From IMG/VR virus record IMGVR_UViG_3300022853_000831, positions 1-25,247 of that record: DNA of 25,247 nt, one strand, 5' to 3'. The notes below the pieces were generated by a model. That model did no database searches and was not told the DNA's origin. It saw only the letters and a program-made list of their open reading frames with translations. Position 1 is the first letter of the stretch. The number at the start of each line of letters is the position of its first letter. This DNA is from a virus. Below, one piece after another: positions 10,737 to 15,903 of this stretch. A program made the position numbers and the translations under genes.

Positions 10737-11294
10737 TCACATCACTTCCAATATATTGTGCATTTCTTCTACAACACATTTGTTGTATTCTCTTAGAGTT
10801 AGATTGTGGTTGTGTACAATAAAATCACACACATCATCCTCAAACTCTGTCTCTGTCACATGACCATCAAAGTTGACACCAGATCTTTTAATCTTAACCA
10901 CAACTCCTCCCATACGATTAATTGACTCAAGCTCGTTCTGAAATCGGAGGTCAGTTATACACCAGATTGCAGATGGGTCTGATGCAATTTGATCTTCGAC
11001 ATATCTTACAAACTGTTGCTCGTCATATCGACGCATTAGCATACCAATCTCTCGAACTACTTGCCGACCAGGTACACTATGAGTAAAAAAGATATTGAAG
11101 TTCACAGATGTTCGTTTGAAAGCGTCATAAGATTGTTCGTCCGTTAACTCGAAGATCTTTGACACCTCCTCTTTGATTGGGTCAGCATAAGCAATCTTTC
11201 TGATATTGTGAAGAGGAAAGGCCTCTTTTGCAGCCTTGAAGAATTGGTCCTTACCAGATCCTTTGGCACCACACAATCCAATAACTAAACTCAT
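10737..11294 (-). CDS. 1: Deoxynucleoside monophosphate kinase (T4 gp1 type)
   Basis: Phosphorylates dNMPs to dNDPs for phage DNA synthesis. P-loop GAKGSGKDQFF near residues 8-18, DPIKEEVSKIF, the VPGRQVVREIGMLMRR segment and the IWCITDLRFQNELE strand (DLRF motif of this family) are present; 185 aa, somewhat shorter than the roughly 240-aa T4 gp1. The ATG at 11292-11294 is chosen over a GTG just upstream because GAGG lies 6 nt away and the junction with dpdA is TGATG. Co-translation with dpdA ties it to nucleotide supply during DNA modification. Confidence 0.92.
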   Translation of the reverse strand: MSLVIGLCGAKGSGKDQFFKAAKEAFPLHNIRKIAYADPIKEEVSKIFELTDEQSYDAFKRTSVNFNIFFTHSVPGRQVVREIGMLMRRYDEQQFVRYVEDQIASDPSAIWCITDLRFQNELESINRMGGVVVKIKRSGVNFDGHVTETEFEDDVCDFIVHNHNLTLREYNKCVVEEMHNILEVM

Positions 11295-12163
11295 CACTCA
11301 CCTCTACACATTTCGTCAATCACAGACATATTATACGTAATTTTTGACATTGTATCAATTGTAATTGTTGGGACGTGATTAAAGTCTACTTCCAGATCAA
11401 GCTTGCCCTTGGTAAGACCTGTTGGACTACCATCGTACTGGATGTTATTAATACCATGCCACACGGCTGATGAGCTGTCCCATGAATAGATGTGCTTGTG
11501 AAAAGGTGATAGAAGTTCTATCTCATTAGGACCTTCAGTCATACCTAAGCAATGAAATCTCTTGTAAGCGCGTGTACTCAATAACCCACGAGAATTCAAC
11601 TCTTTAAATATTGCGTATCGAGAAAGGTATCGCTGCATACGGAAGGCTTCGTCACGTGACCCATCATCATACTTCGTTTCATTCACACCAAGGGCGATAG
11701 GACAGGAGAGGATTGAAATCCCAATATAATCGATTGATGGAGTTTGAAGAGCCCACTGAAAGGACCTCATTAGACCTTCAAGATCACCCAACTCTGACTG
11801 TGGACAGAAGAATGTTTTGAACTTCCGAGACTTGAGGTTAGACATGAGCCTTTCAGCTGACTCTACTGTTTTTGACCAATGCTCTTTTGGATAGTCGGAC
11901 ATGACGATTGAGGTTGCACCAACTAGCTCACCCATCTGAATTAGTTTTTCAGAATTATACATAGGATGACCCCGTTTGAACATTTCAAACGCAGAATTGT
12001 CTAAATGATATACAACTTGAGGCTTCTTCTTCTTCAAATTGATGTAGAAGTTACGATACGTCTCATCTTCCTCAATTAGGTGTGCAAGTAATAGATGCAC
12101 ATCGTATTGTTGTACGATTGGAAGGTATTTTGTTGGTACAATATGGCAAAAATTAATCATCAT
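11294..12163 (-). CDS. dpdA: DpdA-like DNA 7-deazaguanine transglycosylase (TGT fold)
   Basis: Predicted to swap guanine for a 7-deazaguanine base in phage DNA. 289 aa. TGT-type signatures are seen: YHLDNSAFEMF (Asp55), the MSDYPKE strand (Asp90), DYIGISILSCP and, most telling, HCLGMTEGPNEIELL followed by YSWDSSSAVW, where Asp229 sits at the position of the TGT nucleophile. The zinc site C-x-C-x2-C-x(n)-H of tRNA TGTs is absent, as expected of DpdA proteins. Two ATGs in a row (12163, 12160) are possible; GAGG is 4 and 7 nt away. It overlaps the QueD-like gene by 4 nt and the kinase by 1. Substrate base unknown. Confidence 0.85.
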   Translation of the reverse strand: MMINFCHIVPTKYLPIVQQYDVHLLLAHLIEEDETYRNFYINLKKKKPQVVYHLDNSAFEMFKRGHPMYNSEKLIQMGELVGATSIVMSDYPKEHWSKTVESAERLMSNLKSRKFKTFFCPQSELGDLEGLMRSFQWALQTPSIDYIGISILSCPIALGVNETKYDDGSRDEAFRMQRYLSRYAIFKELNSRGLLSTRAYKRFHCLGMTEGPNEIELLSPFHKHIYSWDSSSAVWHGINNIQYDGSPTGLTKGKLDLEVDFNHVPTITIDTMSKITYNMSVIDEMCRGE

Positions 12164-12549
12164 TCAACCTCATAATGTTTGATTGCTCCGTTCTCATTAT
12201 CTTCAGCAACTGATACAATCATAGAGCGGTCAGGATAGCGTTTGTGAATTTCGTTTGCGACATCGTCAGCAATCATCTCGCAAGACTTGTAATCGAGATC
12301 GAGAGTCCCCTTATCAAAAAGGTTTTCTAACCAACGTTTAAACTGAATGAACTCAATGTCTCGGTCGTTGTGAAAGACGTCAATGACAACAAGGAAGTGA
12401 AAGATGTGTCGGTGTGGATATCCAAGGAAACTTACATCATACTCGTCGCCTGTGGCTAGTGCTGGGTCAGTTAGAGCTGCTGGATACTTGTGGATGCCTT
12501 CTTTTTCAAAGGTCACCCAAATGCGATTAAGCTTTGTTGTTAGTGTCAT
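12160..12549 (-). CDS. QueD-like T-fold protein lacking catalytic Cys, beside dpdA
   Basis: 129 aa with a QueD/6-pyruvoyltetrahydropterin-synthase pattern. YPHRHIFHFLVVIDVF corresponds to the HGH zinc strand, IEFIQFKRWLENLF to the Asp-Phe-helix segment, SCEMIADDVANEIHKRY to the substrate-binding helix and VSVAEDNENGAIKHYE to the last strand. The usual catalytic Cys four residues before HxH is Leu, and the Asp-His pair is not evident. It is thus unlikely to make carboxytetrahydropterin; a carrier, modifier or dpdA partner role is possible. The ATGA overlap with dpdA implies stoichiometric expression. A separate QueD lies at 14063-14563. Confidence 0.75.
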   Translation of the reverse strand: MTLTTKLNRIWVTFEKEGIHKYPAALTDPALATGDEYDVSFLGYPHRHIFHFLVVIDVFHNDRDIEFIQFKRWLENLFDKGTLDLDYKSCEMIADDVANEIHKRYPDRSMIVSVAEDNENGAIKHYEVE

Positions 12550-12579: not shown

Positions 12580-13059
12580 TTATTGATCCGACTTCGTTAC
12601 ATTATACCGTCTACGTGTAACGAAGTCAACTCTATCACGAGCTCCGATCTTATAAAGTCCTGTGTTCCTCAATCCCTTAGATACAATGAAACGTTTCATC
12701 TCGTTACGGTCATACCAGGCCATCCAGCCTGTCTGTGGGTTACAGTGCCAGATTCGATCACACACTTTTTTGGGATTAAACAACCAACCCTCGTCGTAAG
12801 TCTCGACATAAAACGCACCGTATATATTGAGGTTGTTTTTAATGTCGGCTGTATAGGAGTTATACCAGGAGGGGTTGCGAAAGGTGATGTCAACACCACC
12901 TACCTGGTGGCCAAAGGATGAGGGGTGGGCAGTACACTCCCACCCCCAAGTCTCGAACACCTTACACATGAACTGTTCACCTTCATCTCCCTTTACGCCA
13001 GTTGCACCAAAGGCGCCTGCTGCTGTTGGAGTCCATTCCTTAGTCAATCGATCACTCAT
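12580..13059 (-). CDS. Putative PD-(D/E)XK nuclease in the deazaguanine cluster
   Basis: 159 aa. Residues E26/E28 (GDEGEQF), then GGVDITF with D57, 14 residues, then ADIKNN with D72-I-K74 fit the E...D...(D/E)-x-K core of the PD-(D/E)XK fold. The second half is a strand/helix tail with basic and Trp-rich segments (TGWMAWYDRNEMKRF). If active it would cut DNA. The context, between folE and dpdA genes, suggests a link with base modification, for example attack on unmodified DNA, but that is inference. The start shares the WTATATTATG initiation motif, with AAGGA 10 nt upstream. Confidence 0.65.
   Translation of the reverse strand: MSDRLTKEWTPTAAGAFGATGVKGDEGEQFMCKVFETWGWECTAHPSSFGHQVGGVDITFRNPSWYNSYTADIKNNLNIYGAFYVETYDEGWLFNPKKVCDRIWHCNPQTGWMAWYDRNEMKRFIVSKGLRNTGLYKIGARDRVDFVTRRRYNVTKSDQ
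12591..12626. repeat. 10-bp perfect inverted repeat around the dpdA-operon promoter
   Basis: ACTTCGTTAC (12591-12600) and GTAACGAAGT (12617-12626) are perfect inverted copies, 16 nt apart. The first lies at the expected transcription start and the second overlaps the -35 of the promoter at 12601-12629, so it has the geometry of a DNA operator. The right arm also codes for the end of the nuclease gene. Confidence 0.7.
12601..12629 (-). promoter_or_regulatory. Sigma70-like promoter for the QueD-like/dpdA/kinase genes
   Basis: TTGACT (12624-12629), 17-nt spacer ending in GG and TATAAT (12601-12606), located in the last codons of the nuclease gene. The downstream leader is about 45 nt to the QueD-like ATG. 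A 10-bp inverted repeat brackets the -10. Confidence 0.78.
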
Positions 13060-13077: not shown

Positions 13078-13746
13078 TTATCGGTTGATGTTGCTCATTA
13101 CTTCTTTACGAAGAGCAGAGTTAGTTACACCAAACATACCTAGACACGTTGCAGTCACTGTAGAACTATTTGTATCTTTAATGCCACGCTGTGAAACACA
13201 AGTATGAGCTGCTTCAATCACAACCATCACATGCTGTGACTCTGTAATAAAAGCAATTGCATGTGCAATTTGTTGGTTCAATCGTTCTTGTACTTGAGGC
13301 CGTTGAGCGAAATACTGTGTAATACGATTGAGCTTTGATAACCCTAACACACGTTTACCGGGAATATAAGCAATGTGAGCTTTACCAATAATTGGACGTA
13401 AGTGATGCTCACAATCAGAGTATAAAGTAATGTTCTTTTCGAGAACAAACTCGTCACCCTGGCAAAACTTATTTTCCACAGTTGTACATTTAGGAAATGT
13501 GTCAGTACGAAGACCAGAGAAGATCTCATCAACGTACATCTTAGCAACACGCAGTGGTGTTTCTTCTAATGAGTCATCGGCAATATCCAGGCCAAGTACT
13601 TCAAGCATTTCAGCTGTTAGAGCTGCAATCTTTTGAATCTTTTCATTACGATCAGCAAGGACCTTGTCGGTCGTTGGTGTATTGATTCCAAGAGACGTCA
13701 GATGGGCGTTTACTTCTTCACCAAGTTGAGGGTGATTTTTAGACAT
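13078..13746 (-). CDS. folE: GTP cyclohydrolase I (FolE)
   Basis: Converts GTP to dihydroneopterin triphosphate, the first step to 7-deazaguanines and folates. 222 aa, the same length as E. coli FolE. Zinc and catalytic residues are present: DCEHH (C112, H114, H115) and HTCVSQRG (H181, C183), together with ETPLRVAKMY and GLSKLNRI. SD AAGGAG lies 6-7 nt before ATG 13746. The 112-nt leader carries a possible pseudoknot and a hairpin. In this window it most likely feeds QueD and QueE rather than folate synthesis. No sigma70 promoter was found in the leader. Confidence 0.96.
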   Translation of the reverse strand: MSKNHPQLGEEVNAHLTSLGINTPTTDKVLADRNEKIQKIAALTAEMLEVLGLDIADDSLEETPLRVAKMYVDEIFSGLRTDTFPKCTTVENKFCQGDEFVLEKNITLYSDCEHHLRPIIGKAHIAYIPGKRVLGLSKLNRITQYFAQRPQVQERLNQQIAHAIAFITESQHVMVVIEAAHTCVSQRGIKDTNSSTVTATCLGMFGVTNSALRKEVMSNINR

Positions 13747-14062: not shown

Positions 14063-14563
14063 TTAATCCAACAAGTTCTCTGCCCATTCGCGATGTCCTT
14101 CTCGCCAAGCCATGTTACTCTGGGTCTCACGTACTTCTACACGATAACACCAAAGACGACTGGCCTCACCTGGACCCCAATAGTCGGGAATATACACTCC
14201 ATTGACAAATCGATAGAGCATATCAGCCAAACTCTCACACCCTAGCTTAGGAATCACAGTTAGTTTAGCCATCTTCTTTGATTCTAACAACTTATATGTT
14301 TCTAACTCAGGGTCATCTTCAGCTACAAGTAACGTATGATCAAACTGATCTTGAAGGATGTTTTTTAATTCTTTGAGACCACCATAGTCAGCTGCCCAGT
14401 TACGGACATCCAGGTCATTAGTGCCGAAGTAGAACTTCATACTAAAAGAATATCCATGAATCAGGTTGCAATGGCTGTCAGCTTTCCATTGTCTATAGGC
14501 AACAGGAAAGGCATCAATGTATTCTTTTGTTGAAGTGTATTTATATGCTATAGGTTGTATCAT
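14063..14563 (-). CDS. queD: QueD / 6-carboxytetrahydropterin synthase family
   Basis: Turns dihydroneopterin triphosphate into 6-carboxytetrahydropterin for QueE. 166 aa from the ATG at 14561-14563, which has GGGAG 5 nt upstream and overlaps the phosphoribosyltransferase stop as ATGA. The catalytic Cys32 in HCNLIHGYSF, the Asp-His pair FDHTLL (D75, H76) and the Glu in VEVRET (E146) are visible. Two positions that are zinc-binding His in classical QueD read Tyr here (VAYRQW, Y23; HGY, Y38), while H31 and H36 remain. It may use a modified zinc site. Despite this the family is clear and it sits next to QueE. Confidence 0.86.
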   Translation of the reverse strand: MIQPIAYKYTSTKEYIDAFPVAYRQWKADSHCNLIHGYSFSMKFYFGTNDLDVRNWAADYGGLKELKNILQDQFDHTLLVAEDDPELETYKLLESKKMAKLTVIPKLGCESLADMLYRFVNGVYIPDYWGPGEASRLWCYRVEVRETQSNMAWREGHREWAENLLD

Positions 14564-15006
14564 TTCTTCTCCCAAGGAAAAACTACCCAATCATTAGTGT
14601 TGAGGAGCTTTGCATAGTAATTTGATGGTTGTTGTGTGGTACTACGTTGAAAAACAGAAGCTGTAATCACATTACCACCCTCTGGATTATATTCCCAATC
14701 CTGTAAAAGCTCAACAAAGGTTCTTCCAGTGTCGTTGATGTCATCAACAAGAAGGATTTTTTTACCAGCAGCAATATCCTCGTTTATTGGGAGGTAGTGA
14801 GTTTGTTGTTGATGATCCCGAGTAGACCATTCAATGGGTACAAGAGGTAGATCCATGTAGTGGCTTAACAACACACCCGGAATTAGTCCACCTCTTGATA
14901 CAGCAGCAATGTAGCTAAAGTCGGTATGGTCTTTTATTATAGCATCAGCTACATCAAGGGACAGTCGGTGTATATATTCCCAAGTGTAATATAGTTTATC
15001 TTCCAT
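14560..15006 (-). CDS. Purine-type phosphoribosyltransferase
   Basis: Type I PRTase, 148 aa. The PPi-loop region is AAVSRGGLIPGVLLSHYM, the PRPP-binding motif is ILLVDDINDTGRTF, and the C-terminal NDWVVFPWE resembles xanthine/guanine PRTases. It would join a purine base to PRPP to form the nucleotide. ATG 15004-15006 is preferred over an in-frame GTG because AAGGA lies 6 nt upstream. Its stop overlaps queD. Inside a deazaguanine cluster it could salvage guanine freed by DpdA exchange back to GMP and on to GTP, the FolE substrate; this is inference. Confidence 0.85.
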   Translation of the reverse strand: MEDKLYYTWEYIHRLSLDVADAIIKDHTDFSYIAAVSRGGLIPGVLLSHYMDLPLVPIEWSTRDHQQQTHYLPINEDIAAGKKILLVDDINDTGRTFVELLQDWEYNPEGGNVITASVFQRSTTQQPSNYYAKLLNTNDWVVFPWEKK

Positions 15007-15045
15007 CACATTTCCTTAATCATTATTCGGCTAGCGTGAGTGTCA

Positions 15046-15903
15046 TTATGTACCCCATGCGTTGGAAAATAAGGGAATTTGAAGTCGATCACTATACCGT
15101 AGACCATGTTTCATTGCCATATCTGCTACGTTACGACTGTTTAATACGTAAACGCTTTCTACGCCACCTACAGGCATTAAATACACATGACCTTTAAATC
15201 CAGCCTCACGATATTCCTGTGTGGCAATCACTGCATCTGCAAAATCCTGTTCCGTGGCGATAACAAACTTCAAGTATGTAGTACCGACCTGTTCATATTC
15301 GCATACAACATCTGGTCTGATAGCATCAACCCACGCTTCACCAGAACATGGCAATTTTGCACTCACTGAAAATGTTATTTCTCTATCCCACCATTCGGCT
15401 GTCCACTCTCCTAAGTAACGTCTAAAGTCCTCAGTTAACTTTTGCGTACCATTTGTTTCGAATGTAATTTCTTTAAGACCATACATTTTAAGATGACTTA
15501 ATAAGTCAGGGTAAGCACGTTGCCATCCTAACAAAGGTTCACCACCTGTAATTACTAGATGCTCATCACCCCATACTTTAAAGGGTAAGATTTCAGCTAT
15601 ACGATCAGCAATGGCATCGCTTGTCAACATAGGGCTTAGATCTTTAAAGTCAGGATGCCATGATGCATAACTATCACACCCTGTACTTACTAACGGCAAA
15701 TCTTCATACTTTAAAAAGGTTTCAATCTTTTTATGAGTATGTGCTACTTCATCGGCTTCTGTGCTAAGCTCACCACGTGGCATACCAAACCCCGCGCACT
15801 TGAAGTTACATCCAAACGTACGAAGGAACACTGAGGGAACGCCCATATATCTACCCTCACCCTGGATAGAATAGAATAACTCAGCTACTTTAATCTTTGA
15901 CAT
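15046..15903 (-). CDS. queE: QueE: 7-carboxy-7-deazaguanine synthase (radical SAM) with split Cys motif
   Basis: Radical-SAM enzyme making 7-carboxy-7-deazaguanine from 6-carboxytetrahydropterin. 285 aa. It begins with the QueE hallmark ELFYSIQGEGRYMGVPSVFLR. The iron-sulphur cysteines are C32 and C36 (GCNFKC) and, 39 residues later, C76 in TGCDSYASW, where classical QueE has the third Cys directly after the second. ITGGEPLL (118-125) is the SAM-binding GGE motif, and FETNGT is also typical. SD AAAGGA lies 7 nt before ATG. It follows the terminator/promoter module at 15934-15975 and leads the deazaguanine unit. Confidence 0.92.
   Translation of the reverse strand: MSKIKVAELFYSIQGEGRYMGVPSVFLRTFGCNFKCAGFGMPRGELSTEADEVAHTHKKIETFLKYEDLPLVSTGCDSYASWHPDFKDLSPMLTSDAIADRIAEILPFKVWGDEHLVITGGEPLLGWQRAYPDLLSHLKMYGLKEITFETNGTQKLTEDFRRYLGEWTAEWWDREITFSVSAKLPCSGEAWVDAIRPDVVCEYEQVGTTYLKFVIATEQDFADAVIATQEYREAGFKGHVYLMPVGGVESVYVLNSRNVADMAMKHGLRYSDRLQIPLFSNAWGT

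Follow-up and report, generated by a model that had tools for sequence, protein, structure and literature searches.

QueD is the closest described relative of the protein considered here, and the roles of its zinc-ligand histidines and of the glutamate that holds the guanine-like ring are established. T-folds that cleave carbon-carbon bonds and have no catalytic cysteine are also known, namely PTPS-III and dihydroneopterin aldolase. The known substrates of YhhQ importers are preQ0, preQ1 or queuine, not 7-carboxy-7-deazaguanine (CDG). In 2023, Cui et al. reportedly detected both dDG and dCDG in the DNA of phages, and they are said to have predicted a CDG decarboxylase named DpdL. Among the papers covered by the literature search for the present analysis, none was found that names DpdL in the CDG-decarboxylase sense.

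The QueD of phage 9g complements E. coli queD (PMC6884629). Where QueC is missing, CDG is the last base made by the encoded enzymes of the pathway (PMC13329287). In tubercidin synthesis, the UbiD-like protein TubF is proposed to decarboxylate a CDG-derived nucleotide (PMC6112128). The phage protein described below, which we call TF, is predicted to be a T-fold paralog that has lost the chemistry of QueD and has taken up a new role in this known pathway.

The deazaguanine locus

The window, meaning the whole stretch of DNA analysed (25,247 nucleotides), is a 25-kb virus fragment in which FolE, QueD, a phosphoribosyltransferase and QueE lie on the same strand as TF. No QueC gene was found in the window. 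The features of the locus are as follows.

11294..12163, minus strand: dpdA-like DNA-guanine transglycosylase, short type, 289 aa (model and profile match)
12160..12549, minus strand: TF (phrog_17812), QueD-like T-fold protein (exact open reading frame, 129 aa)
12590-12601 / 12616-12627, no strand: perfect 12-bp inverted repeat with a 14-nt loop, operator-like, overlapping the promoter
12629-12601, minus strand: sigma-70-like promoter TTGACT-17-TATAAT for TF-dpdA (11/12 consensus match)
13078..13746, minus strand: FolE, GTP cyclohydrolase I (PF01227, E=1.5e-58; NCBIfam)
14063..14590, minus strand: QueD (PF01242, E=7e-15; alignments)
14560..15009, minus strand: xanthine/guanine phosphoribosyltransferase-like protein (PF00156, E=5e-12; NF006613, E=2e-17, below cut-off)
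15046..15903, minus strand: QueE-like radical SAM enzyme, CDG synthase (phrog_2076, E=1e-49)

The TF and dpdA-like reading frames have the four nucleotides ATGA in common, which is the overlap pointed out in an earlier note on this DNA, and the separate QueD that the note placed about 2 kb away is the PTPS match at 14063-14590. TF is considered a real gene because of its pattern of codon differences from contig L012, its match to phrog_17812 and its homologs in phage records. The two proteins are 84% identical, with 54 synonymous and 20 non-synonymous codon differences; the differences number 19/11/68 at codon positions 1, 2 and 3. The match to phrog_17812 has E=5e-32, and the function of that family is given as unknown in PHROGs. 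Pfam and NCBIfam give no match to the TF of the window, the PTPS (PF01242) and QueD (TIGR03367) models included, and of 23 members one matches, weakly (E=0.045).

The model of the DpdA of the window (pLDDT 86) is a barrel of the tRNA-guanine transglycosylase (TGT) type, with archaeosine TGT (1j2b/1iq8) as the top Foldseek matches and the bacterial DpdA 7ui4 also listed. Its profile matches the longer phage DpdA, and the DN/DSGGFQ, HxLG and SxD blocks are aligned. The phosphoribosyltransferase-like gene at 14560-15009 recurs in at least 18 loci, and its product may recover the guanine that DpdA sets free. The reading frames around the deazaguanine genes of the window read like replication genes of the T4 type.

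The earlier note also placed TF and dpdA behind a dedicated promoter with an operator-like repeat. Both elements are found in the window and the promoter, TTGACT-N17-TATAAT, is present in L012 as well, whereas the 12-bp inverted repeat is missing there, so that conservation of the operator is not seen in L012. In the whole window, short-loop perfect repeats of 11 bp or more are found at five positions, compared with 0.1 in mononucleotide shuffles. The window-wide promoter scan shows no excess (15 sites versus 14 in shuffles), and the promoter call therefore rests on the quality and position of the site, which lies inside the 3' end of the reading frame at 12580-13059. This frame, between folE and TF, encodes 159 aa with no Pfam match and with a GVDITF...ADIKNN motif resembling PD-(D/E)XK nucleases; within the set searched, relatives were seen only in the window and in L012.

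Fold and conserved residues

Searching the PDB with the TF sequence profile gave no convincing relative, and a profile of five canonical QueD sequences gave no confident alignment with TF. The link to QueD is drawn from structure searches, from an hhalign match to phage QueDs and from motif alignment. An AlphaFold2 model built from 14 relatives (pLDDT 88, pTM 0.80) has the strand and helix order of a T-fold. In the PDB it comes closest to E. coli QueD and to PTPS proteins, with a Foldseek E of 6e-5, TM about 0.66-0.70 and a VIA Z of about 11.0. When the profile of TF is aligned with the phage QueDs from its own loci (E=4e-6), Leu42 falls opposite the cysteine of QueD. The model thus supports the view that TF is a T-fold protein nearest in fold to QueD, and an unrelated fold, which would have counted against the earlier reading, did not emerge.

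All the elements of the QueD plan that had been read in TF (HRH, EFIQFKRW and SCEMIADDV) are confirmed. In an alignment of 92 family members the invariant positions are H20, H46, H48, F50, H60, R63, E66, F67, S89, C90, E91, E116 and Leu42, with H60 and F67 falling to nearly invariant in a divergent set of 23. The leucine reported at the position of the catalytic cysteine is shared by all 92 members, and the Asp-His pair, described as not evident, has no conserved counterpart in any member. When TF is aligned with canonical QueD, H20, H46 and H48 occupy the zinc-ligand positions (AAH and HGH) and E116 that of the base-anchoring glutamate. From these alignments the metal and base sites appear to have been kept while the catalytic cysteine and Asp-His were lost, and H20, H46 and H48 would bind a metal. 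Residues that are new relative to QueD are R63 and E66, in the motif HxxRDxEF, and C90, in SCE. R63 would be the natural candidate for contacting a substrate carboxylate, and H60, E66 and C90 may act on the same side.

The kept metal-ligand histidines and base-anchoring glutamate were absent from the earlier note, as were the apparent replacement of QueC by TF and the occurrence of TF beside an importer in the absence of FolE and QueE. Long N-terminal extensions with no Pfam match are found on the TF of Chryseobacterium phage MA9V-3 (L011:7431-8312) and Vibrio phage Bakedbeans (L006:7212-8363). The MA9V-3 extension reads by eye like an HNH endonuclease domain. These fusions (293 aa in MA9V-3 and 383 aa in Bakedbeans) were considered as a clue to function and set aside, as no Pfam domain was found in the extra N-termini.

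Association with DpdA and relation to QueC

TF is present in 27 phage records from 12 lineages, 26 of them found directly and the last being Faecalibacterium phage Roos, as well as in at least 597 viral contigs and, among genome assemblies of bacteria or archaea, in 14 contigs. A search of plasmids found it in none. DpdA accompanies TF in all 12 isolate lineages, so homologs do not occur mostly apart from dpdA, and the coupling of the two genes that the earlier note proposed is borne out. The short DpdA of the window type is found in six lineages (Rhizobium I1_18, Vibrio D479, Bakedbeans, Aeromonas, Cellulophaga phiST and Chryseobacterium MA9V-3), and a long type, the profile of which matches tRNA-guanine transglycosylases, is found in five (Phosso, ACP17, PA5oct, X1 and BUCT-ZZ01). 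The DpdA of Roos is DpdA1-like. DpdA lies within the fetched flanks of TF in 97 of 107 loci and is present in 24 of the 26 contigs found with the Roos query; conversely, all five phages with a window-type DpdA carry TF. In the 296-kb contig L023, four profiles detected no DpdA, though TF, a glycosyltransferase, FolE, a phosphoribosyltransferase and QueE are present. A tie of TF to a single type of DpdA was rejected, since at least three types are found with it and DpdA2-like DpdAs also occur in its absence.

A separate gene of the PTPS/QueD type is present in all 11 isolates examined, which are those with a de novo base pathway; the matches in D479 and Aeromonas fall in long divergent reading frames. 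Together with the loss of QueD chemistry, this agrees with the earlier suggestion that TF does a job other than that of QueD. A QueC-like gene is found in one of 12 TF-positive isolates versus six of six TF-negative dpd phages (Fisher p=4e-4), a statistic to be read as indicative and not as a census because the six comparison phages were hand-picked by QueD homology. On this indicative evidence TF takes the place of QueC, and the two nearly exclude each other. The one isolate with both is D479, whose divergent QueC-like gene reads MSGIDS in place of SGGxDS, and a weak QueC match in X1 carries an NAD synthase annotation. Among viral contigs, most of which are fragments, a QueC match exceeds the cut-off in 3 of 42. 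In D479, the QueC-like protein has a nicotinamide phosphoribosyltransferase as its neighbor, and the phage also encodes a PTPS-like protein of 306 aa that lacks the catalytic cysteine (L113:708-1514, L114:607-1527).

The DpdA2-like subfamily occurs with TF in ACP17, X1 and BUCT-ZZ01 and also in Vibrio phages that have QueC and fall outside the TF match list. Since DpdAs of this subfamily pair with either TF or QueC, the presence of TF follows the fate of CDG and not the type of DpdA.

Import and glycosyltransferase neighborhoods

The module of Roos (L092:9276-11872) consists of a ParB-like gene, TF, DpdA and an importer of the Vut_1/YhhQ type (Vut_1 E=2e-42), and the same arrangement is repeated in three gut contigs (L117-L119). 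In the Roos genome QueE is missing and no FolE exceeds the cut-off, so the base is presumably imported. Because Roos keeps TF in the absence of these enzymes, TF acts downstream of base synthesis and is not a helper of FolE, QueD or QueE.

A glycosyltransferase-like gene lies close to TF and DpdA in 89 of the 107 loci (for example, L001:8384-9475, L004:6837-7898, L005:5455-6615 and L013:11071-12273), and Glycos_transf_1 is detected in three of eight members scanned. Near TF, a cluster of NDP-sugar epimerases/dehydratases is found in 47 of the 107 loci and a cluster of DegT-type aminotransferases in 23. This company hints that the 7-deazaguanine in the DNA of such phages may be glycosylated.

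Proposed function and alternatives

The analysis leads to a tentative proposal in which TF is a neofunctionalized QueD paralog dedicated to the 7-deazaguanine modification of phage DNA. FolE, QueD and QueE would produce CDG, and TF, with a metal held by H20, H46 and H48, the guanine ring anchored by E116, and R63, H60, E66 and C90 on the carboxylate side, would convert it to 7-deazaguanine. This step would stand in for QueC, which would give preQ0 from CDG, and DpdA would then swap guanine in DNA for the product of TF. That TF decarboxylates CDG for DpdA is the favored reading, at a likelihood somewhat short of even. CDG would be the substrate and decarboxylation the reaction because loss of the carboxylate is the simplest chemistry compatible with a supply of CDG from QueE, the lack of QueC, a protein with no ATP-binding domain and a small T-fold of the metal type. 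The proposal is weakened by the Roos-type loci, in which the importer belongs to a family that handles preQ0, preQ1 or queuine and not CDG, and by the glycosyltransferase adjacent to TF in most relatives, for which a base with a bare C7-H offers no obvious acceptor. The co-occurrence of TF with a QueC-like gene in D479 and its presence in L023, where no DpdA was found, also count against it. In an extended scheme, TF would be the entry enzyme: DpdA would insert the 7-deazaguanine after TF has acted on it, and the co-encoded glycosyltransferase would then attach sugars supplied by the NDP-sugar genes, giving a glycosylated base in DNA, while the variant in the window would stop before glycosylation. 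This scheme is improbable.

The constant company of DpdA, the only gene that all isolate lineages have together with TF, even Roos with its lack of synthesis genes, would also be explained if TF were a non-catalytic partner that binds the base through its E116/metal pocket, or that stabilizes DpdA or targets it to DNA. The gene overlap in the window and the loss of the QueD catalytic residues point the same way. Such a partner is nevertheless rather unlikely, as DpdA2-like DpdAs manage without TF when QueC is present, and as the invariant, enzyme-like set of polar residues (three histidines, R63, E66, C90, E91 and E116) is not obviously needed by a passive binder. The frequency of glycosyltransferase, NDP-sugar and aminotransferase genes around TF suggests instead that it might tailor the base in another manner, for example by giving the base a handle at C7, newly made or uncovered, which in most relatives the neighboring enzyme then glycosylates, and the Roos module suggests that it can work on an imported base. 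Loci of the window type have no adjoining glycosyltransferase, however, no cofactor-free reaction of this kind is obvious for a T-fold of 129 aa, and no activated intermediate is known; this tailoring role is likewise doubtful. Finally, the QueD of the window keeps the cysteine, Asp-His and glutamate and lacks two canonical zinc histidines (HGY for HGH, no AAH), TF being the reverse, as if TF were a helper or second subunit that supplies QueD with its missing metal site. Most of the phage QueDs examined share this pattern, whether TF is present or not. The QueD of HGY type occurs in the TF-negative phages Iggy, RHEph04 and phi38:2, a canonical HGH QueD is found at the TF loci L099, L101, L104 and L105, and Roos has TF but neither FolE nor QueE, all of which make a helper of QueD highly improbable. 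A split or complementary QueD was rejected on the same ground, the HGY form being equally common in the absence of TF.

If the proposal of a CDG decarboxylase is true, a protein so far unannotated in hundreds of phages, among them PA5oct and Paride, which are jumbo phages of Pseudomonas, would be placed in a pathway of DNA protection. Genome content would then predict the modified base, with QueC indicating a preQ0-type base and TF indicating dDG or another base that is independent of QueC. TF would also be an example of a QueD fold that loses its chemistry while keeping its metal and base sites. The importer-TF-DpdA module of Roos and the glycosyltransferase arrangements make the question of its substrate directly testable.

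Comparison with known systems

QueD/PTPS-I (PDB 4NTK) shares with TF the T-fold, the three zinc-ligand histidine positions and the base-anchoring glutamate, and is its best structural match. TF differs in its invariant leucine for the catalytic cysteine, the missing Asp-His dyad, a shortened loop and the new invariant motifs HxxRDxEF and SCE. QueF and QueF-L are also T-fold enzymes that act on 7-deazaguanine bases, and QueF-L is among the weaker structural matches, which fall well below those to QueD; the comparison with QueF covered the shared T-fold and the structural ranking, C90 being invariant in TF. QueC, which converts CDG to ADG and then preQ0, would occupy the same slot in the pathway as TF, on CDG before DpdA, but is a PP-loop ATPase of unrelated fold. 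TubF resembles the proposed TF in that it would decarboxylate a CDG-derived compound; it belongs to the prFMN-dependent UbiD family, which is unrelated to the T-fold.

The setting expected for the predicted DpdL, namely FolE, QueD, QueE and DpdA with no QueC, Cellulophaga phages included, is the one in which TF is found, except in D479, where a QueC-like gene is present, and in Roos, which lacks FolE and QueE. The identity of TF with DpdL is a lead, and the earlier description of TF as a possible new step of the pathway may be too strong, since a CDG decarboxylase has reportedly been predicted already.
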